From positions 1 through 64,000 of the forward strand of contig JAKQEQ010000037.1 of assembly GCA_029556545.1 (NCBI GenBank): 64,000 nt of DNA. Direction: 5' to 3'. Source of the stretch: Candidatus Hydrogenedentota bacterium (GTDB taxonomy: Bacteria > Hydrogenedentota > Hydrogenedentia > Hydrogenedentales > JAGMZX01). Positions 10,239 to 31,668 of the stretch are shown piece after piece. Within the stretch, counting starts at the first letter, position 1; the number at the start of each line of letters is the position of its first letter. A program made the position numbers and the translations under genes. The notes under the pieces were generated by a model. The model saw nothing but the letters and a program-made list of their open reading frames with translations. It searched no databases and was not told the DNA's origin.

Positions 10239-11426
10239 TCACCCGTCCGTGCCGGTGAGGTGCTGCGCCGCGACCTCGGCGCGGTCGCGCAGCGCGGTGT
10301 CGGCGAGGTGGCTGTACCGCTGGGTCATCTGGCTCGACGCGTGGCCCAGCGCCTTCTGCACCTCGAAGAGGGTCGCGCCGGACTGCACCATGTGGGATGC
10401 GAACGTGTGCCTCAAATCGTGGATGCGGAAGTCGGAGATCCGGGCGGCCTCCAGCACGGCGGCGAAGGCCCGCTGCGGCTGCATGACGGGCGTGTTCGGC
10501 ATGCGCCCGGGGAACACGAACGGGTGGTCCCCGGCGCGCAGCTGGCGCATCCGCTCTATCTCCGCCCAGGCGGCGCTGGACAGGTAGACCCGGCGCGCCT
10601 TCCCCGACTTCGTCCGCCTGAGGTGGATGGACCGCGTCTCGTCGTCCACGTCCTCCCAGCGGAGCGCGAAGACCTCGCGCGAGCGCAGTCCGCTGAACAG
10701 CAGCGTGCGCAGCCCGGATGCCACCGGGATGTTGTCGCACGAATCGAGCGCCGCGAGGAATCGCCTCACCTCGTCCCTCGACAGGTAGCGCTCGCGGCCC
10801 TGCGGCTCCTGGAACTTCTTCACGCCGATGCAGGGGTTCCTTCCCAGCAGGTCGATCTTCACGGCCCAGTTCAGCATGGCCTTGAGAAGGACCAGATGGT
10901 GGTTGGCCGTCGCCGCCGAAAGCCTCTCCCTCATCTTCGCGTGGAACTGCTGCACGTCGCGCGTGGTGATAGCGTCGATCTGCCTGTCCCTGAAATACGG
11001 CAGCGCGCCGGTGTTGAGGCGGCTGATGATGACGTCCGGCCGCCGCACGGTCGCCCTGGCGTGTTCAAGGTATTGGTCCGCGAAGGCCGCGAAGGTGGGC
11101 ATGCTCTCCCGCTTCTCTTTCGCTTCGGCGGGATTCTCCCCACGCGCCAGCATCGCCTTCATCTCCCACGCGCGGTCGCGCGCCTGCTTCAGGTTCATGG
11201 ACGGCCCGAACTCGCCGAGCCGGATGATCCGCTTGTTGTTCCTCCATCGGTAGCGAAGGAACCAGAATTTCCTCCCCGTCTTCGATACGTTCAGCCTCAG
11301 ACCCACGCACTCGGCGTCGCAGAGCTCCATCTGCGTGGACGAGCTCTCTGGATCATGCGGGGGCAGCGTCTCCAGCGCCTTCTGCGTGAAGCGGAAGCGG
11401 GTCGGGCTCTCGATCATTCTCGGCAT
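10239..11426 (-). CDS. Tyrosine-type integrase
   Basis: A 395-residue integrase. An N-terminal arm-binding domain (residues about 15-105, with KFWFLRYRW and LGEFGP motifs of the phage/ICE integrase arm type) precedes a SAM-like core-binding domain (about 110-200) and the catalytic domain, with R248 (SGLRSRE), H336 and R339 (HDLRH), H362 (LGH) and nucleophile Y371. All five catalytic residues are present. The start at 11426 follows a canonical AGGAGG. It is the natural candidate for integrating the island in tRNA-Ser, although it lies about 10 kb from the left att site and inside an inverted-repeat pair. Confidence 0.92.
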   Translation of the reverse strand: MPRMIESPTRFRFTQKALETLPPHDPESSSTQMELCDAECVGLRLNVSKTGRKFWFLRYRWRNNKRIIRLGEFGPSMNLKQARDRAWEMKAMLARGENPAEAKEKRESMPTFAAFADQYLEHARATVRRPDVIISRLNTGALPYFRDRQIDAITTRDVQQFHAKMRERLSAATANHHLVLLKAMLNWAVKIDLLGRNPCIGVKKFQEPQGRERYLSRDEVRRFLAALDSCDNIPVASGLRTLLFSGLRSREVFALRWEDVDDETRSIHLRRTKSGKARRVYLSSAAWAEIERMRQLRAGDHPFVFPGRMPNTPVMQPQRAFAAVLEAARISDFRIHDLRHTFASHMVQSGATLFEVQKALGHASSQMTQRYSHLADTALRDRAEVAAQHLTGTDG

Positions 11427-11822
11427 GGGTATTCCTCCTTTTTGTTTCGGTTGCTTCTCGTCTGGATGCGGTTGTCTTGTGCGCCAACGTCGGCTTAGTT
11501 CGTTGCACACGGGCGCATTCCCCCTGCAATCAATAGTATGTTCACGAGACGGCCCCGGCCTGACTGTACTCAGACGGGGCACCGGGTCCCGGCGGGTGCC
11601 GCCGGGCTCGCATCTCGCCGGGCGGAGCGGACGGCTGCCAGGGGTCTGGCGGGGCGCGGCGCGGTGCCGCGCCTCCCCTCCCGGTGTCCCCGTGGTGGTC
11701 AGGACCCGGCGCGGTTGCACGGGTGCCACGGGTTCCGGGGGATGGGGGCACGTGACGGTGCGCCGCGCCCCGCCGTCGTGGAGTGAAGTCAGCATCGCGC
11801 CTGCGAACGCGGCGCGATGGGG
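11427..11822. other. 396-bp gap upstream of the integrase
   Basis: The very GC-rich interval between the small-gene operon and the integrase. It holds the integrase ribosome binding site and presumably its promoter. I see no convincing gene, RNA or long inverted repeat in it. Confidence 0.5.
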
Positions 11823-15510: not shown

Positions 15511-15570
15511 CCCCACCCACCCCAACACCCCACCTACGGCCACCAGGTTGAGGTGTTGGGGTGGGTGGGG
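15511..15570. repeat. C/G-rich perfect stem-loop
   Basis: A 19-bp perfect stem: 15511-15529 is C-rich (CCCCACCCACCCCAACACC) and 15552-15570 is its exact reverse complement, with a 22-base loop. There is no T-run on either strand, so it is not a standard intrinsic terminator. The same GGGGTGGGTGGGG motif recurs in and after the downstream genes. Confidence 0.8.
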
Positions 15571-15784
15571 TGGTCCTGTCCCCTGGAACTCATAGCGGTT
15601 GACTTGAATGAAGGATCTCAAAGACCGTAGGATGACAATGACGAAAGTGATCAAGACACCCGAAAATGGGGACTATTCCTTGACAGATTGTAACTCTTGA
15701 TAAGGCAAGGACTAACGAGTATCGCGCAGAAAGCGGGAACAGTCTGGCAGGGAATAGCTCTCTCGGGGGGACCTGCAAACGGAG

Positions 15785-18607
15785 ATGACACCGTATCACA
15801 GCCAATACTGGGCACATGCGCTGACACTGCAAAGCGCCGCCGGTAGCATCGAGACGCTCTCCCGGTCGATCTCGAATGCGCGTGTCGATCTCAATCCGCA
15901 TCAGGTCGATGCGGCCCTTTTCGCGCTACGATCCCCGCTGTCCAAGGGTGTTCTTCTCGCCGATGAAGTGGGGCTGGGCAAGACCATCGAGGCGGGCATC
16001 GTCATTGCCCAGCGCTGGGCCGAGCGCCGCAGGCGCATCCTGCTGATCGTACCGGCCACGCTCAGAAAGCAGTGGCAGCAGGAGCTCGAAGAGAAGTTCT
16101 ACCTGCCGACCGTCGTGCTGGAATCGAGGTCGTGTGCGCTGATGGAGCGGGAAGGCGTCGCAAACCCGTTCCAGCAGCACGACAGGATCGTCATCTGCTC
16201 GTACCAGTTCGCCGCTGCCAAGGCCCAGGAGGTCGCGCACACCCCGTGGGACCTCGTGGTGATCGACGAGGCGCACCGGCTGCGCAACGCGTACAAGACG
16301 TCCAGCCGCATGGCCCGCACGGTCGCCTTCGCCTTAGGCCAATCGCCGAAACTGCTCCTCACGGCAACGCCGCTCCAAAACACCCTCATGGAACTGTACG
16401 GCCTGGTCAGCGTCATCGACGAGCACGTCTTCGGCGACGCCGCGTCGTTCCGGGAGCAGTTCACGCGCGCGATAGACGAGCAGAGCCGGAATTTCATGCT
16501 CCGCGAGCGCCTTCGCTCCGTGTGCATCCGCACGCTGCGCAAGCAGGTGGTCGAGTACATCCCGTTCACGCGGCGCACACCCATCACGCAGGACTTCCAC
16601 CCAAGAGACGATGAACACGCCCTCTACGAGGCGATTTCCACCTACCTGCAACGGGAGACCCTCATCGCGCTTCCGGCCAGCCAGCGCATGCTCATCACGC
16701 TCGTGCTGCGCAAGCTGCTGGCATCGTCCACCTTCGCCATCGCGGGCACGCTGCGCAGCCTGATCGCCCGGCTGGAGGATGTTTCCGCTTCCATCGGGTT
16801 CACCGAAGAGGATTTGGAGGAAATCGGCGAACTGGAAGAGGAATGGGCCTCCGACGAGGAAGAAACCGCCGAAGGTGAATTCGATATCGACCCCAAGCTC
16901 CTGAAGGAGGAGCTTGGGGAACTGCGCCGCTTCGCGGCCATGGCCGATGCCATCCGCGTCAACGCCAAGGGCGAGGCCCTTCTCCCGGCGCTGAAGATGG
17001 CTTTTTCCAGGGCCGAGTCTCTTGGCGCACAGCGCAAGGCCGTCATCTTCACCGAATCCCGGCGCACGCAGCAATACCTCTTCGACCTGCTCTCCGAGAA
17101 CGGGTACGCCGGACGGCTCGTGATGATGAACGGCTCCAACAACGACCCTGCTTCCAAGGAGATCTACGGCCAGTGGGTCGAGCGCCACAAGGGGCAGGAT
17201 GTCGTATCCGGATCGCGCGCCGTGGATGTCAAGGCCGCCATCGTCGAGCACTTCCGCGACACCGCCGCCATCATGGTCGCCACCGAGGCCGCCGCCGAGG
17301 GCGTCAACCTCCAGTTCTGCTCGCTCGTGGTCAACTACGACCTCCCGTGGAACCCCCAGCGCATCGAGCAGCGCATTGGCCGCTGCCACCGCTACGGCCA
17401 GAAACACGACGTGGTCGTGCTCAATTTCCTCAACCGGCGCAACGAGGCGGACCAGCGGGTATTCCAACTGCTGAGCGACAAGTTCCGGCTCTTCGACGGC
17501 GTGTTCGGCGCGAGCGACGAGGTCTTGGGCGCGCTGGAGTCCGGTGTGGACATTGAGCGCCGCATCGCCCAGGTCTACCAGAGTTGCCGCACGCCGGAGG
17601 AAATCGCCGCCGCGTTCGACGCCCTGCAGGGCGAACTCGACCTGCAGATCCAGGCCCGCATGGCCGAAACGCGCCAGATGCTGTTGGAGAATTTCGATGA
17701 GGATGTCAGCGAGCGGCTCCGGGTGCACAAGGACAAGACGCTCGAAAGCCTGTCGGAGCGCGAGCGCTGGCTCCTTGGCCTCACGCGGACGGAACTCAAC
17801 GGGCACGCGGAATTCGATGCAACGCAGCCGCGCTTCCGCTATTCCGGCGACGCCGCGCCCAGGGGCTGGTATCATTTCGACTGGAAAAGGGCGGAGCAGA
17901 ACGGCGATATCTTCTACCGCCAGGGGCATCCGCTGGCCGTCCACATCATCGAAACCGCGCTGGGCCGCACTCTGCCGCCCGTGTCGCTCACGTTCCACTA
18001 CACAGGCTACGGAGCCGTCATCAGCATCCTGAAGCCGCTGGTCGGCCAGTCAGGATGGCTCGAACTCTCCAAGCTCACCGTCGAATCCTTCGACACGGAA
18101 GAATTCCTCGTCTTCGCGGCGTGCACGGACGCCGGAGACGCCCTGGACGCCGAAATGTGCCGCAAGATGCTAGCGCTCCCGGCCACGGTGGACCCCATCC
18201 ACCCCACCCAACCCAGTCTGGATGGTGTGCGCCAATCGGAAATTGACCGGCACCTCAAAGTAGTCGAGGATCGCAACGCCCGCTTTTTCGATGAGGAGGT
18301 CATCAAGCTGGACCGCTGGTCCGATGACCTCAAGCAGGGGCTGGAACGCGAGATCAAAGAGTTGGACAAGGCCATCCGCGAGGCGCGCAAGGTCTCCGCG
18401 CTCGCCGCCTCTCTAGCGGAGAAACTCGACGCACAGAAACGGATGAAAGCCCTCGAATCGGAGCGCAGCCACAAACGCCGCGAACTCTTTGACGCGCAGG
18501 ACAAGATAGACGCCCAGCGTGATGAACTCATCGGCAAGATCGAGATGCAGATGAAGCAGAAACAGATGTGCCGCCAAGTATTCACTGTCCGGTGGCGGGT
18601 GGAATAG
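15785..18607 (+). CDS. SNF2/RapA-like helicase
   Basis: A 940-residue superfamily II ATPase. The N-terminal ATPase half has Walker A ADEVGLGKT (K66), Walker B DEAH (161-164) and TATPLQN. The C-terminal helicase half has EGVNLQFCSLVVNYDLPWNP and the motif VI segment QRIGRCHRYGQ. The tail (about 780-940) is a long charged coiled coil. The layout matches RapA-like helicases that remodel nucleic acid-protein complexes. It heads a same-strand cluster with a GHKL ATPase, a type III-like Mod and Res, so a role in phage defence is likely. The ATG at 15785 has only a weak, very close GGAG, so the start is less certain. Confidence 0.88.
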   Translation: MTPYHSQYWAHALTLQSAAGSIETLSRSISNARVDLNPHQVDAALFALRSPLSKGVLLADEVGLGKTIEAGIVIAQRWAERRRRILLIVPATLRKQWQQELEEKFYLPTVVLESRSCALMEREGVANPFQQHDRIVICSYQFAAAKAQEVAHTPWDLVVIDEAHRLRNAYKTSSRMARTVAFALGQSPKLLLTATPLQNTLMELYGLVSVIDEHVFGDAASFREQFTRAIDEQSRNFMLRERLRSVCIRTLRKQVVEYIPFTRRTPITQDFHPRDDEHALYEAISTYLQRETLIALPASQRMLITLVLRKLLASSTFAIAGTLRSLIARLEDVSASIGFTEEDLEEIGELEEEWASDEEETAEGEFDIDPKLLKEELGELRRFAAMADAIRVNAKGEALLPALKMAFSRAESLGAQRKAVIFTESRRTQQYLFDLLSENGYAGRLVMMNGSNNDPASKEIYGQWVERHKGQDVVSGSRAVDVKAAIVEHFRDTAAIMVATEAAAEGVNLQFCSLVVNYDLPWNPQRIEQRIGRCHRYGQKHDVVVLNFLNRRNEADQRVFQLLSDKFRLFDGVFGASDEVLGALESGVDIERRIAQVYQSCRTPEEIAAAFDALQGELDLQIQARMAETRQMLLENFDEDVSERLRVHKDKTLESLSERERWLLGLTRTELNGHAEFDATQPRFRYSGDAAPRGWYHFDWKRAEQNGDIFYRQGHPLAVHIIETALGRTLPPVSLTFHYTGYGAVISILKPLVGQSGWLELSKLTVESFDTEEFLVFAACTDAGDALDAEMCRKMLALPATVDPIHPTQPSLDGVRQSEIDRHLKVVEDRNARFFDEEVIKLDRWSDDLKQGLEREIKELDKAIREARKVSALAASLAEKLDAQKRMKALESERSHKRRELFDAQDKIDAQRDELIGKIEMQMKQKQMCRQVFTVRWRVE

Positions 18608-18619
18608 GGAGGATAGGCC

Positions 18620-18670
18620 ATGGCGCAGACTACCGAGAAGTCACCTGTCGCACAAGGGAGGACATCATGA
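18620..18670 (+). CDS. Possible 16-residue leader peptide
   Basis: A 17-codon reading frame (MAQTTEKSPVAQGRTS) starting 12 bases after the SNF2 stop, with a GGGAGG site 7 bases before the ATG. Its TGA overlaps the ATG of the next tiny frame. It is too short to support by protein similarity; the case rests on the ribosome binding site and the overlap. It may serve to pass ribosomes from the SNF2 gene to the GHKL gene. Confidence 0.3.
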   Translation: MAQTTEKSPVAQGRTS

Positions 18671-18747
18671 GGCATGCTCTTTCCATGAAGCATACCGGGT
18701 TGCAGGTGGATGTACCGGCCACAACTGGGAGAACTCTTGAATGCTAA
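18667..18747 (+). CDS. Possible 26-residue leader peptide
   Basis: A 27-codon frame (starts MRHALSMKHTG, ends GRTLEC) with GGGAGG 5 bases upstream. Its ATG overlaps the stop of the 16-residue frame (ATGA), and its last codons overlap the ATG of the GHKL gene at 18741. Two strong ribosome binding sites in series with two overlaps look designed for translational coupling or attenuation. No protein family can be assigned. Confidence 0.35.
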   Translation: MRHALSMKHTGLQVDVPATTGRTLEC

Positions 18748-20756
18748 CCAACGTCAAAGGCAAGGTGCAAAATACGGACGTGCCCGTGTCCAAGCCATTA
18801 CTGCCTCTTTTCGAGGCCATCACGAATTCACTCCAGTCCATCGAAGACGCGGGACGGAGCCCAGGGCGAATCGACGTTACAATCCTCCGGGAACGCCAGA
18901 AACAACTTTCGGACGATGATCGCGCCTTTGCCGAAATAGTTGGTTTCCGCGTCACGGACGACGGAATCGGATTCACAGATACGAATTACCAAGCATTCAA
19001 CGAATCAGAGACAACCTTCAAGGCAGACAGGGGTGGGAAGGGAATTGGGCGTTTCACCTGGCTTGTAGCCTTCAGTGATGTCAGCATTTCTAGCGCTTAC
19101 AACGAGAGTGGGAAGAACCTGCTCCGCGTCTTTCGATTCGTACCTGTTAACGATGGAATTGCCGATGCGTCTGTCGTGCCGACAACCAATGGCCACGTTG
19201 CCACGACTATTGAGCTTCGCGGGTTCAGGGCGGCATATCAGAAACAATGTCCCAAGAAGCCGGAGACCATTGCCTCATACATTATCGAGCATTTTCTTGA
19301 GTTCTTCATTGGCCCGCGTTGTCCCGACATCTTTCTTCACGATGAAGCAGGAGGCGACCCCCTGGATCTGCGTCAAGTATTTGAGCACGAGATGGTGTCG
19401 AAATCACAGCCCGAGGGTATTCTCGTGGGTGAGACAGAGTTCACTATTCTTCACGTGCGACTCAACTCGACACATATCAAAGACCATGCCCTGCACTTCT
19501 GCGCAAATCACCGCGTGGTGTACTCCGAGAAGCTCGGGCGACAGATTCCCAATCTGACAGCGCGCCTTAGAGATGATAAGGAGCAGGAGTTTGTCTATGC
19601 AGGATATGTGGAATCTGACTATCTGGATACACATGCAAGTTCTGACCGAACGGCATTCAGCATAACTGAAGATGATTCAGAACTTCTTTCGAGCGAGATC
19701 ACCTGGACTGCAATACGCAAAGGTGTTCACGAAGCGTGCAGGGTCTTCCTAACTCCCTTTACAGAACCCGTCCGTATCCGCAAAGCCGAACGCATACAGG
19801 AGTTTGTGCGCAATCAAGCGCCAATGTACCGACCTATTTTGGACCTGATTCCCGATGAAGTCAATTCAATCAGTCCGGATGCCTCGGATGGTGAAATGGA
19901 CCTCCACTTGTATCGTGGTCTTCAGCGAATTGAACTCTCTCTGAAAGAGGAAGGGCAGAAATTGCTGAATACCACCAGTGGTGAGGAAGAGAACGTTGAC
20001 GAGTATCGGGACAAAATGAAGGAATACTTCGAGAAGGTCACAAAAATAAAGGCGGCGGACCTCGCGCGCTACGTATGCCAACGCAAAGCCATTCTTGAAT
20101 TCCTCAAGAAACAACTGAGCATCGCAGATGACGGCAAGTACCCAAAGGAAGACAGGGTACACAATATCATCTTCCCAATGGGCAAAACCTCCGATGAGGT
20201 GCGCCTTGACGAACACAATCTATGGCTGCTTGACGAAAGGCTCGTATATCATTTCTTCCTTGCGTCTGACAAGCAGCTTCGAGTTTTGGTTCCCCTCACG
20301 AATTCCGATCACAGCGAACCAGATATCATCGTGTTCGATAAGGCGTGCGCGTTTGTTGGCTCTGAGGAACATCCGTTTTCGAGCATTACCATTATTGAGT
20401 TCAAGCGCCCAATGCGGAAGGGTTACACAGAGAACACGAATCCCTTTGTCCAAGTTCGTGAGTACATTGATGAGATTCGAGCGGGAAAAGCGCGAACCCC
20501 CGATGGGCGCGACATCCCGATTCTAGCTGGGATGCCCTTCTACTGTTTCATTGTCTGCGATATCGACAGCACCATCGAAAAGCAGGCCTACGATTTTGAA
20601 TTAACCAAGACACCAGATGGTCAGGGTTTCTTTGGGTTCAAGCGACAGTACGATGCCTATTTCGAGGTCATTTCCTATAGCAAAATGGCTATGGACGCCC
20701 AGAAGCGAAATGCTGTGTTCTTTGACAAACTAGGCCTACCCTCACGGGTGGGATGA
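18741..20756 (+). CDS. GHKL ATPase with C-terminal PD-(D/E)XK-like motif
   Basis: 671 residues. The N-terminal ATPase domain shows the Bergerat fold motifs: E25-x-x-x-N29 (FEAITNS), D74-G-I-G (TDDGIGF) and the glycine loop GGKGIGRF (99-105). A helical middle region follows. Near the C-terminus D528 (EPDIIVF), then E553-x-K555 (IIEFKRP) form a spacing typical of PD-(D/E)XK nucleases, so the protein may be an ATP-gated nuclease; this is my reading and untested. The gene is noticeably more AT-rich than its neighbours. It is 6 bases upstream of the methyltransferase gene, so the two are co-translated. Confidence 0.82.
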   Translation: MLTNVKGKVQNTDVPVSKPLLPLFEAITNSLQSIEDAGRSPGRIDVTILRERQKQLSDDDRAFAEIVGFRVTDDGIGFTDTNYQAFNESETTFKADRGGKGIGRFTWLVAFSDVSISSAYNESGKNLLRVFRFVPVNDGIADASVVPTTNGHVATTIELRGFRAAYQKQCPKKPETIASYIIEHFLEFFIGPRCPDIFLHDEAGGDPLDLRQVFEHEMVSKSQPEGILVGETEFTILHVRLNSTHIKDHALHFCANHRVVYSEKLGRQIPNLTARLRDDKEQEFVYAGYVESDYLDTHASSDRTAFSITEDDSELLSSEITWTAIRKGVHEACRVFLTPFTEPVRIRKAERIQEFVRNQAPMYRPILDLIPDEVNSISPDASDGEMDLHLYRGLQRIELSLKEEGQKLLNTTSGEEENVDEYRDKMKEYFEKVTKIKAADLARYVCQRKAILEFLKKQLSIADDGKYPKEDRVHNIIFPMGKTSDEVRLDEHNLWLLDERLVYHFFLASDKQLRVLVPLTNSDHSEPDIIVFDKACAFVGSEEHPFSSITIIEFKRPMRKGYTENTNPFVQVREYIDEIRAGKARTPDGRDIPILAGMPFYCFIVCDIDSTIEKQAYDFELTKTPDGQGFFGFKRQYDAYFEVISYSKMAMDAQKRNAVFFDKLGLPSRVG

Positions 20757-20762
20757 GGAACT

Positions 20763-22436
20763 ATGAGTAATCGAGCGAAACTAGAGTTGACCTGGATTGG
20801 CAAGGAGAACCGGCCCAAGTTGGAGCCACGCATTCTCTTGGAGGATCCGGAGAAGTCGTATCACGCCAAGAGCCGGGTGTCGGAGAGCGATATCTTCGAC
20901 AATATGCTGATCTTCGGGGACAATCTGCTGGCGTTGAAGGCGTTGGAGCAGGAGTTCACAGGGAAGGTCAAGTGTATCTATATTGATCCGCCTTACAACA
21001 CGGGCTCCGCTTTCACCCACTATGATGACGGCGTTGAGCACTCACTGTGGTTATCTTTGATGAGGGACAGACTTGAGCTCTTGCGGGTTCTCCTGTCCGA
21101 AAACGGAACGATCTGGATTTCCATCGACGACAATGAGTGTCACTATCTCAAAGTGTTGTTGGATGAGATCTTCGGCAGACCGAATTTCGTCGCAACGGTG
21201 ATTTGGCAAAAGATGTTCTCGCCCAAAAGTACCGCACGCCACCTGTCAGACATGCACGATCACGTCTTGCTCTACGCGAAGAATAAGGATAAGTTTGAGC
21301 GCAATCTGCTTCCGAGGAGCGCAGAGCACAACAAGATGTACAAGAATCCAGATGATGATCCAAGGGGGCCATGGACTTCTGGCGACCTTTCTGCGCGCAA
21401 TCCTTACAGCGCAGGCATTTATCCCATTACGGCCCCATCGGGAAGGATAATCTCTGGTCCACCCAAAGGGATGTACTGGCGTGTTTCAAAGGAGAAGTTC
21501 CGGGAGATGGATCGGGACAACCGGATTTGGTGGGGGGCGAAAGGGGACAATCAGCCACGAATCAAGAGGTTCCTATCCGAAGTGATGGAAGGCATTGTTC
21601 CGCAAACGATCTGGTTCCATGAAGAGGTGGGAAACACTCAGGAAGCAAAGAAAGAGGTAATGGCCGCTGTGCCATCTGAGGCGGAGGTGTTTCAGACGCC
21701 AAAACCGGAAAGGCTAATAAAACGCGTTCTTGACATCAGCACAAAACCAGGGGATCTTGTGCTTGATTCCTTTGCCGGGACTGGCACTTTGGGCGCGGTG
21801 GCGCACAAGATGGGCCGCCGCTGGATTATGGTGGAGTTGGGCGAGCATTGCCACACGCACATCATCCCGCGGTTGAAGAAGGTTATCGACGGCGAAGATC
21901 CTGGCGGCATTACGAAGGCGGTGAGTTGGGGTGGTGGGGGTGGGTTCCGCTACTACCGGCTCGCGCCGTCGCTCCTGGAGCGGGACAAGTTCGGGAACTG
22001 GGTGATCAGCAAGAAATTCAACGCGGCGATGCTGGCGGAAGCGGTGTGCAAACTCGAAGGGTTCACCTATGCGCCAAGCGATGCGGTGTATTGGCAGCAG
22101 GGACACTCAACCGAGACGGATTTCATCTACGTGACAACGCAAACGCTGACGCGGGATATGATGCAGCAATTGAGCGACGAGGTCGGCGAGAAGCGGTCGT
22201 TGCTGGTGTATTGTGGCGCGTTCCGGGGAAAGGGCGACGCATTCCCGAATCTGACGGTCAAGAAGATACCCAAGGCCGTGCTCAGGAAATGCGAATGGGG
22301 CCGCGACGACTACAGCCTCGAAATCCGCGATCTGCCCCCACCCACCCCACCACCCCAACCCGAAGGCACACCTCCTGTTTTGAGAGGCAAGGAGCGCCGT
22401 AAGAAAGAACAAGAAGGCCAGGGAGAGTTGTTTTGA
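20763..22436 (+). CDS. Type III-like Mod DNA adenine methyltransferase
   Basis: 557 residues. Motif IV DPPYNTG (D75-P-P-Y78) precedes the AdoMet-binding FAGTGT (337-342), the beta-class order used by type III Mod subunits. It should methylate adenine in a short asymmetric site on one strand and so protect the host from the Res partner at 22905. The middle (about 95-325), where target recognition lies, is visibly more AT-rich than both ends, suggesting exchange of that domain. Two G/C-rich repeat tracts lie in the coding region: at about 21922-21948 (a Gly run) and about 22335-22362 (a Pro-rich stretch near the end). Confidence 0.9.
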   Translation: MSNRAKLELTWIGKENRPKLEPRILLEDPEKSYHAKSRVSESDIFDNMLIFGDNLLALKALEQEFTGKVKCIYIDPPYNTGSAFTHYDDGVEHSLWLSLMRDRLELLRVLLSENGTIWISIDDNECHYLKVLLDEIFGRPNFVATVIWQKMFSPKSTARHLSDMHDHVLLYAKNKDKFERNLLPRSAEHNKMYKNPDDDPRGPWTSGDLSARNPYSAGIYPITAPSGRIISGPPKGMYWRVSKEKFREMDRDNRIWWGAKGDNQPRIKRFLSEVMEGIVPQTIWFHEEVGNTQEAKKEVMAAVPSEAEVFQTPKPERLIKRVLDISTKPGDLVLDSFAGTGTLGAVAHKMGRRWIMVELGEHCHTHIIPRLKKVIDGEDPGGITKAVSWGGGGGFRYYRLAPSLLERDKFGNWVISKKFNAAMLAEAVCKLEGFTYAPSDAVYWQQGHSTETDFIYVTTQTLTRDMMQQLSDEVGEKRSLLVYCGAFRGKGDAFPNLTVKKIPKAVLRKCEWGRDDYSLEIRDLPPPTPPPQPEGTPPVLRGKERRKKEQEGQGELF

Positions 22437-22442
22437 TGGATG

Positions 22443-22469
22443 CACCACGAAGCCGCGAAGGACACGAAG
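22443..22469. repeat. Left inverted repeat of the GxxExxY cassette
   Basis: 27 bp (CACCACGAAGCCGCGAAGGA and onward) that match the reverse complement of 22861-22887 with one mismatch. It is built on a 9-bp period (..CGAAG..) like several arrays elsewhere in the window. It lies between the Mod stop and the GxxExxY start. Confidence 0.85.
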
Positions 22470-22480
22470 GGAGGCGATGA

Positions 22481-22852
22481 ATGGAGTTCGATTCGTTGTC
22501 CAACCGCGTGATCGGGTGCGCCTTGGAGGTGCATCGCCACTTGGGGCCTGGACTTTTGGAGTCCGCCTATGAGGAATGCCTTGCCTATGAGTTGCAGGTG
22601 GCGGGGCTGGCATTTTCGCGCCAGGTGGATTTGCCGGTGACCTATAAGGGTTTGCGCCTGGATTGCTGTTATCGAATGGATGTGGTTGTCGAGAATACGC
22701 TGCTGCTGGAACTCAAGAGCGTGGAGGCGTTGTTGCCGATCCACGAGGCGCAATTGTTGACCTATATGAAACTGTCCGGGCTGAAAACCGGCCTGCTCAT
22801 GAACTTCAACGAACGCTATCTGAAAGATGGACTGAAAAGGATGGTGTTATGA
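22481..22852 (+). CDS. GxxExxY protein (PD-(D/E)XK-like)
   Basis: 123 residues with the family motif GPGLLESAYEECLAYEL (residues about 22-38) and a downstream RMDVVVENTLLLELKSV segment that fits a PD-(D/E)XK nuclease-like core (D then E-x-K). Function unknown; the family is common as a small gene inserted beside other genes. Start ATG at 22481 has GGAGG 7 bases upstream. It is framed by 27-bp inverted repeats and sits between Mod and Res, breaking what would otherwise be the usual adjacent mod-res pair. Confidence 0.85.
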   Translation: MEFDSLSNRVIGCALEVHRHLGPGLLESAYEECLAYELQVAGLAFSRQVDLPVTYKGLRLDCCYRMDVVVENTLLLELKSVEALLPIHEAQLLTYMKLSGLKTGLLMNFNERYLKDGLKRMVL

Positions 22853-22860
22853 ATTTCCTT

Positions 22861-22887
22861 CTTCGTGCCCTTCGCGGCTTCGTGGTG
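22861..22887. repeat. Right inverted repeat of the GxxExxY cassette
   Basis: Reverse complement of 22443-22469 with one mismatch. It lies 8 bases after the GxxExxY stop and 17 bases before the Res start, so the small gene and its two repeats form a cassette of about 445 bp. Confidence 0.85.
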
Positions 22888-22904
22888 AACCAAAGGAGTG
22901 GCAT

Positions 22905-25571
22905 GTGAACCCCCAAGTAAACGCCATCAGCAACCGCCTGAGCCTGCGTCCGCCGCAGCGCGAGGCGCTGGAGATTTTGGACCGCGTGTGCGAGATCATC
23001 TCGCTGGAGAAGGGGGCGGACCTTGATCAGGCGCTGAGCGTCATCCGGTCCGAATTCCCTACGGTCGCCGATTTCGAGCGGGAGTTTCCCTCGCTGTGCT
23101 TCGCACTGGCGACGGGCGTGGGCAAGACGCGGCTCATGGGGGCCTTCATCAGCTACCTGTTCCGCGTCGAAAACATCCGGCATTTCTTCGTGCTGGCCCC
23201 TAACCTGACCATCTACAGCAAGCTGATCGCGGACTTCACGCCGAACACGCCAAAGTACGTACTCCAAGGCATCTCGGAATTCGCCACCACCCCGCCCGTG
23301 ATTATCACGGGCGACACCTACGAGCAAGGCATCGGCGTGCGCGAGGGCTACCTGTTCGAGGCGGGCGAGGTGCACATCAACATCTTCAACATCTCGAAGA
23401 TCAACTCCGAGGTGCGCGGCGGCAGCGCCCCGCGCATCAAGCGCCTGAGCGAGTACATCGGCGAGAGCTATTTCGAGTACCTGTCCAAGCTGGATGACCT
23501 GGTGCTGATCATGGACGAGTCGCATCGGTATCGCGCGACCGCCGGGGTGCGCGCCATCAACGAACTTCGACCTATTATCGGCCTGGAACTGACGGCCACG
23601 CCCCAGATCGAACGCGGCGGCGGGGCGGACCCGTTCAAGAACGTCATCTACAGCTATCCGCTGTCGTGCGCCCTGGACGACGGCTTCGTCAAGGAGCCCG
23701 CCGTGGCCACGCGCGAGAATTTCATCGCGGACAATTACGACCGCGACGGCCTGGAGCGGCTGAAACTCGAAGACGGCGTCCGGTTCCACGAGAACACCAA
23801 GGTCGAGTTGGAGGTGTTCGCCCGCGAAAACAGCCGCCCCATCGTAAAACCGTTCATGCTGGTGGTGGCGCAGGACACGGAGCACGCCGACGCACTGGTC
23901 AAGGTCATCGAGGATGACGCCTTCTTCGAGGGGCGGTACAGGGGGAAGGTGATCACGGTGCACTCGAACCTGCGCGGCGAGGAGAAAGACGATACCGTGC
24001 AGCAGTTGCTCTCCGTGGAGGATCCGGCCAATCCCATCGAGATCGTGGTGCACGTCAACATGCTCAAAGAGGGCTGGGACGTGACCAACCTGTACACCAT
24101 CGTGCCGTTGCGCACCGCGAACTCCCGGACGCTGGTCGAGCAGTCCATCGGGCGCGGCCTCCGCCTGCCCTACGGCAAGCGGACGGGCAATCCCGCCGTG
24201 GACCGGCTGACCATCGTGTCGCACGACCGGTTCCAGGAAATCATCGACCACGCCAACGACCCCAACTCCATCATCCGCACGGGCATCATCATCGGGCGCG
24301 ATGTCTCGGACGAACGGACGAAGGTGGTGGTGGTGCCGCCGACCATCGAGGCGCGGATAACGGGCGATGACGCCCAGGCGGCGGGCCAGCAGGGCCTGCT
24401 GTTCGACCGGCCCGAAGAGCGCCAAATCGCCCGCACCGTGCTCAACATCATCCGCGACTACGAGCGGCTGCCGCGCTCGGGCGATCTGTTGTCGCCCGAA
24501 GTGCAGAAGGAGTTGGTGGAGAAGACGGCGGCGGTGGTGACGCCGAAGCAGTACGAGATCGAGGGCACGTCCGAAAGGGTGGACCTGGTCAGGGTCGTTC
24601 GCGAGACGGCGGCGCAGTACGTGGCGATGTCGATCGACATCCCGCGGATCGTGGTGGTGCCGACCGGCGAGGTGACCGGCGGTTTCCAGGACTTCGATTT
24701 GGACACCTCCAACGTGCATCTCCAGCCGGTGGCCAACGACCTCATTTCGCAGGGGTTGCATAAAGGCCAGCGCTACCACCTGATCAGCGGCGACGGCATC
24801 GTGCCGGAGGAGCGGCTGGAAGACTACCTTGTTCGCGGCCTGATCGACTTTGACGACATCAACTATGACGATAACGCGGACCTCTTGTACAAGTTGGCCG
24901 GACAGATGGTCCGGCACCTGCAATCGTATCTGAAAAGCGAAGACGACGTGCTGAACGTGCTGCAGTATCACCAGCAGACGCTGGTTAACCTTATCCATGC
25001 GCAGATGCTCGCTTATTATAAGGAAGAGGCCACCGAGTACACGGCGCAGGTGACCAGGGGGTTCACCACCATCCGCGCGAACGCCTACAACGCGCCCGCC
25101 GATGAGCCCGTCCGTGACGTGCGCACGCCTGTGCCGGACTTGCAGAACATCCGTCGGATGCTGTTCGGCGGGTTCCGCAGGTGCCTGTATGGCGTGCAGA
25201 AATTCGATGCGGATTCGGAGCGTCGCTTCGCCGTGATCCTGGATACCGACCGCGACGTGCAGAAGTGGTTCAAGCCGGTGCGCGGCGACTTTCAGATCCA
25301 TTACGGCCATGACGACGCGGCGTACAACCCCGACTTCGTGGTGGAGACGGATAAGGCCAAGTACATTTGCGAACCCAAGGCCGCCAACGAGATGACCGAT
25401 GAGACGGTGCTGGCTAAGGCGCGGGCCGCCGCCGTGTGGTGCGAGCATGCTTCCAAGCATGCCCGCGACCATGACGGGAAGCCCTGGTCCTACCTCCTCA
25501 TCCCCGACGACCAAATCCGCGAAAACATGACGCTGCAAGGACTTGCAGCGGCGCACACCTTCCGGGCATGA
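22905..25571 (+). CDS. Type III-like Res helicase-endonuclease
   Basis: 888 residues, GTG start after AAAGGAG. N-terminal superfamily II helicase: Walker A ATGVGKT (K74), DEAH-like MDESHRYR (near residue 204), TATPQ, and a C-terminal helicase half ending in QSIGRGLRLPYG. A C-terminal nuclease motif follows: P-D810-F, then E823-P-K825 (PDFVVE...CEPK). Type III Res proteins translocate or slide on DNA and cut when two unmethylated sites meet, needing the Mod partner. Length and motif order fit the family. Confidence 0.9.
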   Translation: MNPQVNAISNRLSLRPPQREALEILDRVCEIISLEKGADLDQALSVIRSEFPTVADFEREFPSLCFALATGVGKTRLMGAFISYLFRVENIRHFFVLAPNLTIYSKLIADFTPNTPKYVLQGISEFATTPPVIITGDTYEQGIGVREGYLFEAGEVHINIFNISKINSEVRGGSAPRIKRLSEYIGESYFEYLSKLDDLVLIMDESHRYRATAGVRAINELRPIIGLELTATPQIERGGGADPFKNVIYSYPLSCALDDGFVKEPAVATRENFIADNYDRDGLERLKLEDGVRFHENTKVELEVFARENSRPIVKPFMLVVAQDTEHADALVKVIEDDAFFEGRYRGKVITVHSNLRGEEKDDTVQQLLSVEDPANPIEIVVHVNMLKEGWDVTNLYTIVPLRTANSRTLVEQSIGRGLRLPYGKRTGNPAVDRLTIVSHDRFQEIIDHANDPNSIIRTGIIIGRDVSDERTKVVVVPPTIEARITGDDAQAAGQQGLLFDRPEERQIARTVLNIIRDYERLPRSGDLLSPEVQKELVEKTAAVVTPKQYEIEGTSERVDLVRVVRETAAQYVAMSIDIPRIVVVPTGEVTGGFQDFDLDTSNVHLQPVANDLISQGLHKGQRYHLISGDGIVPEERLEDYLVRGLIDFDDINYDDNADLLYKLAGQMVRHLQSYLKSEDDVLNVLQYHQQTLVNLIHAQMLAYYKEEATEYTAQVTRGFTTIRANAYNAPADEPVRDVRTPVPDLQNIRRMLFGGFRRCLYGVQKFDADSERRFAVILDTDRDVQKWFKPVRGDFQIHYGHDDAAYNPDFVVETDKAKYICEPKAANEMTDETVLAKARAAAVWCEHASKHARDHDGKPWSYLLIPDDQIRENMTLQGLAAAHTFRA

Positions 25572-25599
25572 GGGTGGGGTGGGTGGGGTGGGTGGGGTA
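25570..25599. repeat. G-rich tract at the end of res
   Basis: GGGTGGGGTGGGTGGGGTGG and on: several runs of three or four G separated by single T, starting at the Res stop codon. It fits the consensus of a G-quadruplex on the plus strand and repeats the motif of the stem-loop at 15511. Confidence 0.75.
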
Positions 25600-25645
25600 T
25601 TCCCCAATCCGGTTGCGCAGACGCGCCAGACCATAGGTTTAGGTA

Positions 25646-26792: not shown

Positions 26793-28580
26793 ATGATGAA
26801 AGACAAGTCGAAGTTAGATGTGCCGGATGAGGCCCTCATCGCTGAAATGCAGGTTGAGGTTAACGCGGAGCGTGCGGAACTGGCCAAGGGCACGGTTGAG
26901 CAAAAGTGTGATGTTACTTACGAAAGCACACCTGACGGTGTGGTCACTACTGTCTCAGACGACGTTCTCTTTGCCGATGGCCTTCCGGTGATAGAGATGG
27001 TCGACCGTGCGCGGTACGAAGTTTCTGATGATGCCCTTCGCGCGTTGGTGTTGCGGAACACGCCGCCGTGGGTGTTCACCATGCGCCGAGAACTTGTTCG
27101 CGTCGTGCAGGATGAGAATGGCGCATTCCTGGACCCATACAATATTGACAGCCTTCGAGGTGATCTTGACAGGAGCGCTCATTATACCAGGACCGCCCGC
27201 TCGCATATCGCTGTTTCCACTATCACCGAAGCTTACGTCCGCGACATCTTAGCGCGGCGGAGATTCCCTGGGTTCCCTTCGTTGCGCGGTGTCATCACCG
27301 CACCTTGCATCAGCCCTGACGGATCCCTGATTGACACGCCGGGGTATCACGAAGAGTCTGGGCTGTACTATGCGCCCGGCTCCGGACTCGAAAGCATTCG
27401 TGTCTCTGACCGTCCGACGAAAGAGGAAGTGAAGATGTCCATCGCTCTTATCAGCGAGGTCATTGTAGATTTCTGCTTTCTGGATGAAGCCAGCCGCGCA
27501 AATGCGTTTGCCCTTATCATTACACCTTTCGTACGCCCGAACATTGAAGGTCCGGTGCCGTTAGCAATCGTCTCAAGCCCGGCGCAAGGAACGGGAAAAT
27601 CACTTCTAGCAGACGTGACATCTATCCTCTATACCGGCACGCACTACAAAGGCTTGATGCTCGAATCAGAGGCCGAAACCCAGAAGCGTTTGACGACAGC
27701 GCTGATGAAAGGCCGCCCGATTATTGTCCTTGACAACCTCGTTGGCCGTGTGTCGAGCCCGAGTGTCGCGAGGGCCGTCAGCGAATCCATTTGGAGCTCT
27801 CGTCTGTTGGGGCAAAACAGGGAGGTTGAAATCCCCGTCTGGGTTACGTGGATTGGTAACGGCAACAATGTCGGCCTGAGTTCCGAGATCGTGCGCCGTT
27901 CATATCCCATTCGTCTTGATGCCAAGATGCGGCGGCCTCACACGCGCAAGGGCTTTCGTCATCCCAAACTGCTTGCTTGGGTAAAGAAGGAACGGACCAA
28001 GATCGTGTCTGCAATTCTGACGCTGCTCAAAGCGTACTCCGTGTCTTTGGATCGGCCTCCCGTGGACGTTCCAGTCATGGGTCTGTTCGGGGAATGGGCG
28101 GAGCTTCTTGGCGGAATACTGGCCTTTGCCGAAATACCTTCGTTCTTAGGCAACCTTCAGGAATTCTGGTCGGAAGATGACGACGAAGCCCAGCAATGGG
28201 AGATTCTCTTGCTCGAAGTGTACCGAAAGTATGGTGGAAAACCGATGGAAGCGAACAAGATCGCCGCCCTGCCTGTGGAATTCTTCCCAGAGTTCCTCGC
28301 GGATTATTACGAGCGACCGTCATTTCCGGTTAGGCTCGGCAAGGCGCTGGCCAACATTAGGGACCGCGTGTTCAACGACGATGGCCTTCGTGTCGAGAAG
28401 GTGAAGTCTGTGCATGGCAAGAGTCTGTGGCGCGTGGTTACCCCGACGGCGCATTCGGATGGGCCGAATATCGTACCGCTGCCCACCGTAGCGGCATCGC
28501 CTGCACCTCTCCCGAAAAGGTCTCAGACCAGTCAAGACGACGGAAGCCAGGTCGCCCCGAACTTGCAAGCCGGTCAATAG
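26793..28580 (+). CDS. D5-like replication ATPase/helicase
   Basis: 595 residues. Walker A SSPAQGTGKS (residues 261-270, K269) in a domain of the kind found in D5/VirE-type or phage-plasmid replication ATPases, with a following Asp-containing hydrophobic strand (PIIVLDNL) as Walker B. The N-terminal 230 residues are unassigned; the C-terminal tail is Ser/Pro/Gln-rich. Next to a primase zinc finger and a polymerase, it should be the helicase of the island's replication module. Start chosen at an ATG preceded by GGAGG. Confidence 0.72.
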   Translation: MMKDKSKLDVPDEALIAEMQVEVNAERAELAKGTVEQKCDVTYESTPDGVVTTVSDDVLFADGLPVIEMVDRARYEVSDDALRALVLRNTPPWVFTMRRELVRVVQDENGAFLDPYNIDSLRGDLDRSAHYTRTARSHIAVSTITEAYVRDILARRRFPGFPSLRGVITAPCISPDGSLIDTPGYHEESGLYYAPGSGLESIRVSDRPTKEEVKMSIALISEVIVDFCFLDEASRANAFALIITPFVRPNIEGPVPLAIVSSPAQGTGKSLLADVTSILYTGTHYKGLMLESEAETQKRLTTALMKGRPIIVLDNLVGRVSSPSVARAVSESIWSSRLLGQNREVEIPVWVTWIGNGNNVGLSSEIVRRSYPIRLDAKMRRPHTRKGFRHPKLLAWVKKERTKIVSAILTLLKAYSVSLDRPPVDVPVMGLFGEWAELLGGILAFAEIPSFLGNLQEFWSEDDDEAQQWEILLLEVYRKYGGKPMEANKIAALPVEFFPEFLADYYERPSFPVRLGKALANIRDRVFNDDGLRVEKVKSVHGKSLWRVVTPTAHSDGPNIVPLPTVAASPAPLPKRSQTSQDDGSQVAPNLQAGQ

Positions 28581-28588
28581 GTGCCCCA

Positions 28589-29131
28589 ATGGATCTGCTG
28601 GATCTTCTGCTTGAGGATGGCTTCAAACCGTTGCGCAAGACGGTGAACGAATGGGCGTCGCCTTGTCCATGGTGTCCGGACCACGGGCGGGATCGGTTCA
28701 TCATCAGACGGACAGGATCCGTTCTGCGGTTCTGGTGCCGTCGTTGCGGACGCCGTGGTGCGGCGTATACGTATCTCGTCGAGTTCCGGCAACTGGCTCC
28801 CGAAGCGGCACGGCGAATCCTCGGCGTGTCCGAGCAGGAAATGCGGCGGCTTCAAGGTGATTCCTCACACCCCAATTCGCGTAGCAATTCGGACGCACGC
28901 CGCCGCCCTCCACTGATTTGGCGGGAGAAGGCGTGGCTGACCGTCCTGGCGTGTGAGCGTGAGCTATGGTCCGGCTCACAGAAGACCGAGGACGTTCTTC
29001 ATTGGCTCAGAGATGAGCGCGGTCTGTCGGACGAGACAATCAAGGAATTCCGTCTCGGTTATGTGGCGCGAACTGTCTTCCGCGAGCGCGAGAGTTGGGG
29101 CCTGTCCGACTCCAGAGAGGTACGCGAATGA
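28589..29131 (+). CDS. Stand-alone CHC2 zinc-finger primase domain
   Basis: 180 residues with a DnaG-type zinc site: C26-P-W-C29, H32, then C50-R-R-C53. The rest (about 60-180) corresponds to the start of a DnaG-like core without a TOPRIM domain. The TOPRIM domain is at the start of the next gene, whose ATG overlaps this stop (ATGA). The two therefore act as a split primase. The reading frame upstream of 28589 overlaps the preceding gene and is not used. Confidence 0.85.
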   Translation: MDLLDLLLEDGFKPLRKTVNEWASPCPWCPDHGRDRFIIRRTGSVLRFWCRRCGRRGAAYTYLVEFRQLAPEAARRILGVSEQEMRRLQGDSSHPNSRSNSDARRRPPLIWREKAWLTVLACERELWSGSQKTEDVLHWLRDERGLSDETIKEFRLGYVARTVFRERESWGLSDSREVRE

Positions 29132-31668
29132 GCGTGTTCGTTCTTCCAGAAGGCTTGCTGTTTCCCCACGTCGAGGCAGACGGCGTGACCGGGGAGGTCT
29201 CTGTTGGTCGCCTGAGAATACGGAAGGCCGAACAGAGCGGCTCGAAGTATCACACGGTGGCGGGTTCCAGCATGACGCCCCTCTGCATCGGCCTGCGCCG
29301 GACGTTCCCGGTTGTCGTAGTCGAATCGGATCTGGACGCGATGCTCGTGTCGCAGGAGGCTGGCGACCTTGTCGGGGTTGTCGCCTTGGGGTCCGTGACC
29401 AACCGCCCGGATGAGGAGACGTTCCGCATTCTCAGGAGGGTCCCCCTGATCATCGTGTCCTTGGATAGCGATCCTCCTGCGGCGCGGGAATCGCGGCAGT
29501 ACTGGGAGCGGCATTTCCCTCGGAGCGTACGCTGCCCCATACCGCGAAGGTTCGGGAAGGACCCCGGGGAGGCCTTCCGCAACGGCCTCGACATCCGAAC
29601 GTGGGTTGTCAGCGCCCTCAAGATGGCCGATTGGTCGCTGCCAGACGAGGAAGATTTGGACGCAACGCGCCTGAGCGCCTGCGATGTGCATGGCCCATCC
29701 GATCCGCTTCCCATTGAGGACGACAAGCCTGACGACTACGCAGCACCGGCGTGTGACGCGCCCGTTGCCGTTGCGTCCTCCGGGGAATCGCCCGCACCGG
29801 CGTGTGCGGTCGGCGAGACCCCGCCCGACGAAGGTCCAGAGGGTTCTCTTGCTCCGGTTCCGACGTTTGAGTACATCACGGACGACGACCACGCGCGGAA
29901 GGCCGTGGCGTCTCTGCTGGAGGCACCGAGCCCGTACGGGGCCGATATCGAAACAGCGAAGCACCCTGATTATGCCGGGCATCCCCAGAGCGGCCTGGAC
30001 CCCCACCTCTCGCGCATCCGCTTGGTGCAGATTTGCGCAGCGGGCCTGCCCATCTATGTGTTCGACTTCTCCGGGATCGACCCGAGTATCCTAGCGCCGC
30101 TGTGGGACCGCCCGATGGTCTTCCACAACGCCCTTTTCGATATCCGCCATATCCTTCACTCCGGCGCGAATCCGTCCAAGGTCGGCTGCACGATGCTGAT
30201 GGACAATGCCCTGGCGGGGGGGATGCGCGGCCTCGCCGACCTCGCGGAGGACTATCTCGGACTCGCGGTTTCCAAGGCGGAGCAGACATCAGACTGGAAT
30301 GCCCCACACCTGACAGAAGATCAGCTTGCTTATGCCGCCCTCGATGCCTGCTTGGTTCTTCAGCTCTATCACATACTCCGGGAACGGCTCGCGGGCGAGG
30401 GGCTCGGGCGATGCTACGCGTTGATGCGCGACGCGCAGCGCGCCGTCGCCGAGACGATGCTGGCGGGGCTCGGTTTCGACGTCGCGGCGCACGCCGACGT
30501 GGTCCGCGAGTGGGAGGCTCAGCGGGACACGGCGAAGGCGAGGGTGGTCGAGGTACTTGGCCCTGACATTGACCGAAACAGCCCTACTCAGGTGGCCCGG
30601 TGGTTCGAGACCCACCTTGACGAGGGAACGTTGCGGGAGTTGCCTCGAACGAAGACGGGGCAAATCTCCACGGCGGCGGAGTCCCTGGCCGCCATCGGTA
30701 ATCATCCCGCTGTGCGTAGCTTGATCGAGTACAAAGCTGTCCAGACGCTCTTGTCCACGTTCGGCGCGCCGTACGCTCGGCATGTGAACCCCGTGACCCG
30801 CCGCCTTCACGGTGGTTTTCGTTTCTGCACCTCCACGGGTCGCATGAGATGCAAGAATCCCAATGTTCAGAACGCCCCAAGGCAGCAGTCTTTCCGCGCC
30901 CTTTTTGTGGCCAAGCCCGGTCACGTTCTTCTAAAGGCCGACTACAACCAGATGCAGCTTAGAGTGGTGGCCGAGCTTTCCCAGGACGCCACCATGCTCG
31001 AAATCTTCCGGGAGGGGCGGGACATCCACCGCCTGACCGCCGCCGCTATCACCGGCAAGATGCCGTCCGAGGTGACGAAGTCTGAGAGGAGTGCTGCCAA
31101 AAAGAGCAACTTTGGTTTCATCTTTGGAATCGGACCGAAGAGATTTCGTATGGATGTTATGGAGGAATATAGTATAGATATGACATTTGAAGAAGCAAAG
31201 CAAATTCGCAGCATCTTCTTCAGGACCTATCCGGGCGTTGAGAGATGGCACAGGTGGCTGTCCGCACGTGCCAAGCAGACCTGGAGTGTCACGACGCCGG
31301 GCGGTCGTGTCCGCAGATTTCCGCGAAAGGGGAACCAGCCGCCCTACACGGAAGTGCTCAATACGCCCGTGCAGGGCGGCGAGGCCGAGGTCCTGCTATC
31401 GGCGCTGGCCCTGTTCCCCGAGCGGCTCGGGGGGCTGGACGCCAAACTCGTGAATGTCGTTCATGACGAGGTCCTGTTCGAGGTCGCAGAGGCGGACGTC
31501 TCCAAGGCGGTTCCCATTATCGAGGCCGTCATGGTCGAGGCCATGCAAGCCGTCTTCCCGGATTGCAGCACCAGGAATCTGGTGGATATCTCTGTAGGCA
31601 AGGACTGGGGTAATACGGCGAAGTACTGCGCCGACTCCGTGGCGGGCTGCGCCGGATTGGAGGGTTGA
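29128..31668 (+). CDS. TOPRIM-3'-5' exonuclease-DNA polymerase I fusion
   Basis: 846 residues. Residues about 1-170 are a TOPRIM domain with E66 (VVVESD) and D113-S-D115, the primase/topoisomerase metal residues. A Pro/Ala/acidic linker (about 170-250) leads to a DnaQ-like exonuclease: D273-x-E275, N334...D338, and Y402-x-x-x-D406. A family A polymerase follows: motif A D605-Y-x-Q, motif B R654...K658...F662 and motif C H779-D780-E781. There is no 5'-3' exonuclease. The motif B Tyr normally preceding the final Gly is Phe here (F666). All catalytic acids look intact. Joined to the CHC2 gene and next to a D5-like ATPase, this is a primer-synthesising replicase for the island. Confidence 0.88.
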   Translation: MSVFVLPEGLLFPHVEADGVTGEVSVGRLRIRKAEQSGSKYHTVAGSSMTPLCIGLRRTFPVVVVESDLDAMLVSQEAGDLVGVVALGSVTNRPDEETFRILRRVPLIIVSLDSDPPAARESRQYWERHFPRSVRCPIPRRFGKDPGEAFRNGLDIRTWVVSALKMADWSLPDEEDLDATRLSACDVHGPSDPLPIEDDKPDDYAAPACDAPVAVASSGESPAPACAVGETPPDEGPEGSLAPVPTFEYITDDDHARKAVASLLEAPSPYGADIETAKHPDYAGHPQSGLDPHLSRIRLVQICAAGLPIYVFDFSGIDPSILAPLWDRPMVFHNALFDIRHILHSGANPSKVGCTMLMDNALAGGMRGLADLAEDYLGLAVSKAEQTSDWNAPHLTEDQLAYAALDACLVLQLYHILRERLAGEGLGRCYALMRDAQRAVAETMLAGLGFDVAAHADVVREWEAQRDTAKARVVEVLGPDIDRNSPTQVARWFETHLDEGTLRELPRTKTGQISTAAESLAAIGNHPAVRSLIEYKAVQTLLSTFGAPYARHVNPVTRRLHGGFRFCTSTGRMRCKNPNVQNAPRQQSFRALFVAKPGHVLLKADYNQMQLRVVAELSQDATMLEIFREGRDIHRLTAAAITGKMPSEVTKSERSAAKKSNFGFIFGIGPKRFRMDVMEEYSIDMTFEEAKQIRSIFFRTYPGVERWHRWLSARAKQTWSVTTPGGRVRRFPRKGNQPPYTEVLNTPVQGGEAEVLLSALALFPERLGGLDAKLVNVVHDEVLFEVAEADVSKAVPIIEAVMVEAMQAVFPDCSTRNLVDISVGKDWGNTAKYCADSVAGCAGLEG

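Follow-up and report, generated by a model that had tools for sequence, protein, structure and literature searches.

A SNF2-bearing type III-like restriction-modification operon with probable exchangeable cargo in a Candidatus Hydrogenedentota contig

The window (the whole 64,000-nucleotide stretch of Candidatus Hydrogenedentota DNA analysed here) contains a five-gene operon that we read, with a probability of roughly 0.78, as a type III-like restriction-modification chassis of SNF2, Mod and Res, carrying an independent GHKL-nuclease gene as cargo in one slot and a GxxExxY cassette in a second. An earlier note on this DNA had joined all five genes in a single system. They are instead a chassis with exchangeable cargo, in which GHKL and GxxExxY are embedded passengers rather than obligate parts, and do not make up a new machine of five components.

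Gene content of the operon

Five open reading frames, all on the plus strand, lie within positions 15785–25571 of the window in the order SNF2, GHKL, Mod, GxxExxY, Res (Table 1), and the family matches of their proteins are far above chance level. The same layout had been proposed in the earlier note and is borne out by the ORF calls and profile matches. Two residues named in the note also fall where they should, with K66 being the Walker A lysine of SNF2 and D75 the aspartate of DPPY in Mod.

Table 1 Features of the operon, with positions given in the window.
Feature	Position	Strand	Description
SNF2 (RapA/DrmD-like SF2) ATPase, core gene 1	15785..18607	+	940 aa; K66 Walker A, DEAH 161-164; motif conservation across 63 loci
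Slot 1, exchangeable cargo site SNF2/Mod	18608..20762	+	2155 bp here; slot size and contents vary across loci
Cargo: GHKL ATPase with C-terminal PD-(D/E)XK nuclease motif, paraMORC3 / VcSduA (type I-D Shedu) type (predicted)	18741..20756	+	671 aa; E25, N29, D528, E553, K555
Mod, beta-class DNA aminomethyltransferase, core gene 2	20763..22436	+	557 aa; DPPY 75-78, FAGTG 337-341
Mod variable target-recognition region, about residues 149-310	21207..21692	+	Hypervariable; decoupled from Res distances; swapped in natural E. coli pairs
Slot 2 cassette, 27-bp inverted repeat at both ends	22443..22887	.	445 bp; repeat copies 22443-22469 and 22861-22887, 96% complementary
GxxExxY protein (PDDEXK_3 family), within cassette	22481..22852	+	123 aa; TIGR04256 match; missing from G010
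Res, SF2 helicase with C-terminal PD-ExK nuclease, core gene 3	22905..25571	+	888 aa

The SNF2 protein matches Pfam SNF2-rel_dom (3e-36) and Helicase_C (3e-17), its Walker A motif reading DEVGLGKT and its DEAH box starting at residue 161. RapA is the nearest solved structure by sequence, and the profile scan returned no match to any nuclease family. The closest homolog in the species genomes belongs to a Candidatus Hydrogenedentes MAG (87% identity; L040). Mod matches Pfam N6_N4_Mtase (5e-48) and PADLOC MTase_III (752 bits), and bears the arrangement of a type III methyltransferase, with DPPY preceding FAGTG and a recognition region in between that is hypervariable over residues 149-305. Res likewise belongs with the type III enzymes, being an SF2 helicase with a C-terminal PD-(D/E)XK nuclease that is encoded near mod; it matches PADLOC REase_III (755 bits), carries the helicase motifs GVGKT, DESH and TATP, and has its C-terminal PD...ExK at P809, D810, E823 and K825.

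The SNF2-Mod-Res chassis across genomes

In the nearest complete relative (G010, from the same order and another family), SNF2, Mod and Res are 81–83% identical to those of the window, Mod being counted outside the recognition domain and SNF2 and Res lying at 82–83%, and the operon has neither a GHKL nor a GxxExxY gene. An alignment-based scan for SNF2 across one genome per species found 419 relatives. The top-scoring 80 were retrieved with their flanks, and among SNF2 loci with at least 9 kb downstream Mod was present in 43 of 45 and Res in 41 of 45. The reverse scan, anchored on Res, was run in two other phyla because the window's own phylum is represented by only 68 genomes in the searched set. 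Where at least 9 kb lay upstream of Res, it recovered SNF2 in 21 of 27 loci. Some Res-anchored loci are the same contigs as SNF2-anchored ones, which makes the two scans only partly independent of each other. Four Res-anchored loci (L120, L148, L154, L155) had no nearby SNF2 even after extension, and two others (L133, L144) were limited by contig ends. Plasmid records with Res also carried SNF2 in at least 22 of 23 cases.

Together, the SNF2-anchored, Res-anchored and plasmid loci provided 63 non-redundant loci with all three genes, from many phyla. The order SNF2-Mod-Res on one strand was found in every one of them, and the catalytic motifs of SNF2, those of Res (GVGKT, DESH, TATP and PD...ExK) and the DPPY and FxGxG motifs of Mod vary little or not at all. 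Distances among SNF2 proteins follow those among Res proteins (Spearman rho 0.63; 0 of 1000 permutations as high). The window operon has the gene features of a type III system with an additional ATPase, in the form of a recurrent SF2 ATPase 5′ of mod that is not homologous to Res, and the joining of SNF2 to Mod/Res that the earlier note had seen in one sequence recurs in the same gene order in many phyla.

The same note held that a system with such extra ATPases was undescribed, which does not stand. Murray et al. (2021) described Eco86II and BspHIV, characterised type III systems of the m4C kind in which a further, helicase-like ATPase gene lies 5′ of mod, and reported such an ATPase in >500 genomes (PMC8259958). 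The GHKL-nuclease corresponds to paraMORC3 (2008) and to VcSduA, a type I-D Shedu protein (2025). As in the window, the ATPase of the Eco86II/BspHIV type is SNF2-like, lies upstream of mod and res on the same strand, is not homologous to Res and has no nuclease motif; the window operon differs in having cargo between SNF2 and Mod. In E. coli NCTC86 (L216) we found a SNF2-Mod-Res locus, which from strain and gene order is probably Eco86II. Its SNF2 is 45% identical to that of the window over its length, whereas its Mod and Res are longer (1040 and 1126 aa) and its Mod core is only 27% identical. L037, like NCTC86, combines a SNF2 of this family with the second and much longer type of Mod/Res, whose Mod measures about 1040–1060 aa, so that the motor is common to two type III lineages.

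In the type III enzyme EcoP15I, Mod and Res bind unmethylated DNA and, with ATP, begin to slide along it; the Res nuclease fires when two such complexes collide. By analogy, Mod and Res of the chassis would bind unmethylated phage DNA, ATP would convert the complex to its sliding form, and the meeting of two complexes would trigger the PD-ExK nuclease of Res. Mod, judging from its family, would recognise an asymmetric site through its exchangeable central domain and methylate one strand of host DNA. For SNF2 we infer an accessory role in restriction, most likely as a translocase on double-strand DNA that might, for instance, clear or remodel proteins ahead of or at the restriction complex; this role is the weakest step of the proposed mechanism. 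SNF2 does not appear to be absolutely required, given the four Res-anchored loci that lack it. The extra ATPase of Eco86II is not needed for methylation and yielded no peptides in a partially purified DNA-cutting preparation (PMC8259958); these published data argue that SNF2 would lie outside the minimal cutting complex.

The same observations, that Eco86II cleaves and methylates without a detectable extra ATPase (PMC8259958) and that four Res loci have no SNF2, are compatible with a view of the operon as two or three independent neighbours, in which mod-res would be an ordinary type III system by itself and SNF2 a separate defence or regulatory gene travelling along. We regard this as unlikely. 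Order and strand are fixed in 63 of 63 loci across many phyla, SNF2 remains directly next to Mod in the 18 loci that are free of cargo, SNF2 co-diverges with Res, and the SNF2 family is also found with the very different Mod/Res of NCTC86. The reading of SNF2 as part of the chassis bears on a protein that was left without a function in 2021 and that is here a near-constant component with intact catalytic motifs in many phyla.

Several loci depart from the common arrangement. In L042 (6199-12664), the genes after a SNF2 of the chassis family are not Mod/Res but an ISL3 transposase and the type I-E CRISPR genes cas3 and cse1. A C-terminal Res fragment (residues about 538-885) lies at L039:14179-15219, in G014, with no SNF2 or Mod nearby, and is probably a decayed copy. 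In L076 (20756-22832), a 541-aa ORF interrupts Mod; it begins with an HNH motif in its N-terminal part and may be an endonuclease element that has inserted there. Upstream of SNF2, five E. coli loci (L210, L211, L213–L215) carry a short HTH gene whose annotation is MAD1, a component of the methylation-associated defence system (MADS), and Aeromonas plasmids carry a WYL-domain gene. Neither a MAD1-like HTH nor a WYL gene was found upstream of SNF2 in the window, and the MAD1 annotation in some E. coli loci is all that would connect the operon with MADS, so we did not retain membership of that system.

Cargo slots and natural exchange

The interval between SNF2 and Mod (slot 1) exceeds 600 bp in 42 of the 63 loci and measures at most 120 bp in 18, and the interval between Mod and Res (slot 2) exceeds 600 bp in 12. 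Slot genes were scanned after being picked from the larger clusters and by size. Those in slot 1 include OLD-type ATPase-TOPRIM, AriA-like and LmuB-like ATPases, AIPR/AbiU, AbiD, GmrSD-like (HEC-06/Orf5), ietAS, HEC-01A/B, HerA, Schlafen AlbA_2 and BRO-N (PDC-S13) genes, and those in slot 2 include YhcG (PDC-S02) and RhuM (PDC-S05); DUF2130 and a few others had no such family match. Slot cargo mostly matches known or proposed phage-defence families, which is an observation among the scanned genes and not an enrichment figure. The gap beside SNF2 is a repeated landing place of defence-type genes, so that new defence genes may be found by reading the SNF2/Mod interval.

Exchange can be followed among 28 E. 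coli genomes with near-identical SNF2 and Res, in which the two genes stand at four start-to-start spacings (7620, 6424, 6544 and 7605 bp). Between L210 from strain TB06051, with Abi and AIPR genes, and L215, with a 67%-identical Abi gene and IS1, SNF2 is 98.9%, Res 99.9% and the ends of Mod 90–100% identical, while the cargo differs and the middle of Mod is about 30% identical. L210 and L214 share cargo and flanks at 97–99% identity and differ mainly in the middle of Mod, and L210 and L213 are 99.8–99.9% identical apart from a deletion in the AIPR gene. These comparisons show the chassis persisting through changes of cargo and recognition domain. The L214 and L210 pair is in itself a natural switch of the recognition domain alone.

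The wider set of loci displays the same partition within Mod. Its middle region has a mean distance of 0.74 and hardly follows Res (rho 0.15), as is expected of an exchangeable recognition domain, whereas its C-terminus does (rho 0.65). In the window, GC3 is 0.84 for SNF2 and 0.87 for Res against 0.57 for the GHKL gene and 0.61–0.72 for Mod, and the GHKL and Mod block is compositionally unlike its SNF2 and Res flanks. SNF2 and the Mod-end/Res flanks thus stay in place as the cargo changes, often along with the recognition domain. We hypothesize that homologous recombination in these flanks is the route, and a single operon would in this way deliver several defence layers together.

Embedded defence genes have precedents in PrrC, which lies within the EcoprrI restriction-modification operon (PMC3874165), and in DarTG2 within a type I system and 'guilt-by-embedding' (PMC12255303, citing Payne et al. 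2024). In the accounts consulted, both resemble the window operon in placing unrelated defence genes at a recurrent position of a restriction-modification operon, but their hosts are type I systems, whereas the host here is a SNF2-bearing type III chassis with visible exchange of cargo and recognition domain. The extra type III ATPase (PMC8259958) and the embedding of defence genes in such operons (PMC3874165, PMC12255303) are already known separately. In the literature searched we found no account of their combination, a type III chassis with SNF2 that occurs across many phyla and whose recurrent slot changes its cargo along with the recognition domain.

The precedent of PrrC (PMC3874165), together with the persistence of effectors inside the operon and not beside it, several of them abortive-infection-like (AbiD, AbiU, OLD, ietAS), raises the question of whether cargo and chassis are coupled. 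The cargo could be a back-up weapon that the SNF2-Mod-Res complex holds in check or whose release follows failure of that complex, after the model of PrrC and EcoprrI; SNF2 would then be the coupling element. This seems improbable to us, since 18 of 63 chassis loci have SNF2 and no cargo, VcSduA is effective alone (PMC12137116), and the cargo families are structurally unrelated, leaving no common interface visible. We are equally doubtful of a general weapon rack across phyla, in which the SNF2 motor would couple Mod/Res recognition to whichever unrelated effector fills the slot; if true, one cassette swap would alter target specificity and effector together. The E. coli pairs that are near-identical save for cargo and recognition domain offer a direct setting for the role of SNF2 and for any coupling of cargo to chassis.

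The GHKL-nuclease and the GxxExxY cassette

Evidence for the GHKL assignment comes mainly from homologs and fold. The window protein itself has no Pfam match at E<0.01, and its homologs match HATPase_c/HATPase_c_3 at about 1e-5. A predicted model (pLDDT 82) matches the folds of Hsp90, GyrB, MutL and SMCHD1 with E values of about 1e-9 to 1e-10. This fold comparison established the ATPase part, whereas the nuclease domain did not stand out in it. When the GHKL profile was run against PDB sequences, only weak histidine-kinase matches appeared, and Pfam SduA_C (DUF4263) was matched by one of 10 homologs, at E=0.15, and not by the window protein. Across 24 homologs the GHKL-motif residues E25, N29, D73, G75, G77, G98, G101 and G103 are invariant, as are D528, E553 and K555, in agreement with the earlier description of an ATPase with a nuclease-like triad at these last three positions.

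GHKL motifs and a C-terminal E-D-ExK occur here in one protein, the combination that marks paraMORC3 and type I-D Shedu. The paraMORC3 group was defined by Iyer et al. in 2008 as GHKL proteins with a C-terminal RE-fold domain bearing E-D-ExK, and is partly stand-alone (PMC2292703). VcSduA alone protects E. coli and V. cholerae from phage and requires E27 and K557 (Nature Microbiology 2025; PMC12137116). On these motifs, the window protein is a predicted paraMORC3/VcSduA-type protein, a type validated as stand-alone defence. It shares with VcSduA the N-terminal GHKL ATPase, the C-terminal PD-(D/E)XK motif and the frequent stand-alone occurrence, and E25 and K555 correspond to E27 and K557 by motif only and not by sequence alignment. 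It differs in that its gene is embedded in a type III operon and its defence activity is predicted. Most likely, it would act alone like VcSduA, forming a dimeric clamp that is gated by ATP and cleaves invading DNA with its C-terminal nuclease.

Homologs of the GHKL protein (27–53% identity) lie beside unrelated genes in plasmids. One is encoded by phage vB_RanS_PJN03 near the genome end, beside a phage integrase, and 34 viral contigs contain others, which were detected by an alignment-based scan where a single-protein query found no match. In a chassis slot, the GHKL gene was seen elsewhere only in L076, at 53% identity, among the loci examined. Its absence in G010, its stand-alone occurrence in plasmids, phage and viral contigs, its deviating GC3 and the activity of VcSduA alone identify it as cargo. 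A functional link to the chassis may nevertheless exist, as the gene ends 6 bp upstream of mod and recurs in L076.

The GxxExxY protein matches TIGR04256 at 1.5e-44, and its segment is best read as an inserted cassette. In G010, where the gene is missing, mod and res overlap by 4 bp. No further copy of the 27-bp inverted repeat was found in the genome, which has only two diverged GxxExxY homologs, and we therefore rejected a many-copy mobile repeat as its origin.

One strand, short gaps such as the 6 bp between GHKL and Mod, and the SNF2-...-GHKL-...-Mod succession in L076 could be taken to mean that SNF2, GHKL-nuclease, Mod, GxxExxY and Res form one integrated machine. We consider this very unlikely. 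The GHKL gene is absent from G010 and from every chassis locus examined except L076, unrelated genes occupy its position elsewhere, its homologs are found away from the chassis in plasmids and viral contigs, and GxxExxY is framed by its own inverted repeat. The search for recurring neighbourhoods that the earlier note had called for divides accordingly: SNF2-Mod-Res recurs and SNF2-GHKL-Mod-Res does not, L076 being the sole other case among the loci examined and G010 lacking it. No other locus has all five genes or even both extras, L076 sharing the GHKL gene only.

A DISARM variant, with SNF2 as DrmD and the remainder degenerate or replaced, can be set aside as highly improbable: the best profile match of SNF2 is indeed DrmD/DrmD_b (PADLOC 698 bits, NCBIfam 707 bits), and class 1 DISARM likewise combines a DrmD/RapA-group SNF2 helicase with a DNA methyltransferase, but the score is under the curated DrmD_b cut-off of 950, no DrmA, DrmB or DrmC was found in the operon, and the remaining proteins fall solely into the type III Mod/Res, GHKL and GxxExxY families. 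The earlier note, too, had found no match to DISARM. As a DrmD equivalog, SNF2 was rejected on both models (NF038318, 707 bits against 950; NF038317, 263 against 610).

Around the operon, the window has a tyrosine integrase at 10239-11795 (minus strand) and phage-like primase and DNA polymerase A genes at 26793-31665 (plus strand). The integrase on one side and phage-like replication genes on the other suggest that the operon resides in an element that is mobile or derived from a phage. G-rich repeats, similar to one another and about 31 nt long, which may be low complexity, are located at the operon ends (15539-15576 and 25564-25603), with an inverted copy at 22336-22367 in the proline-rich tail of Mod.
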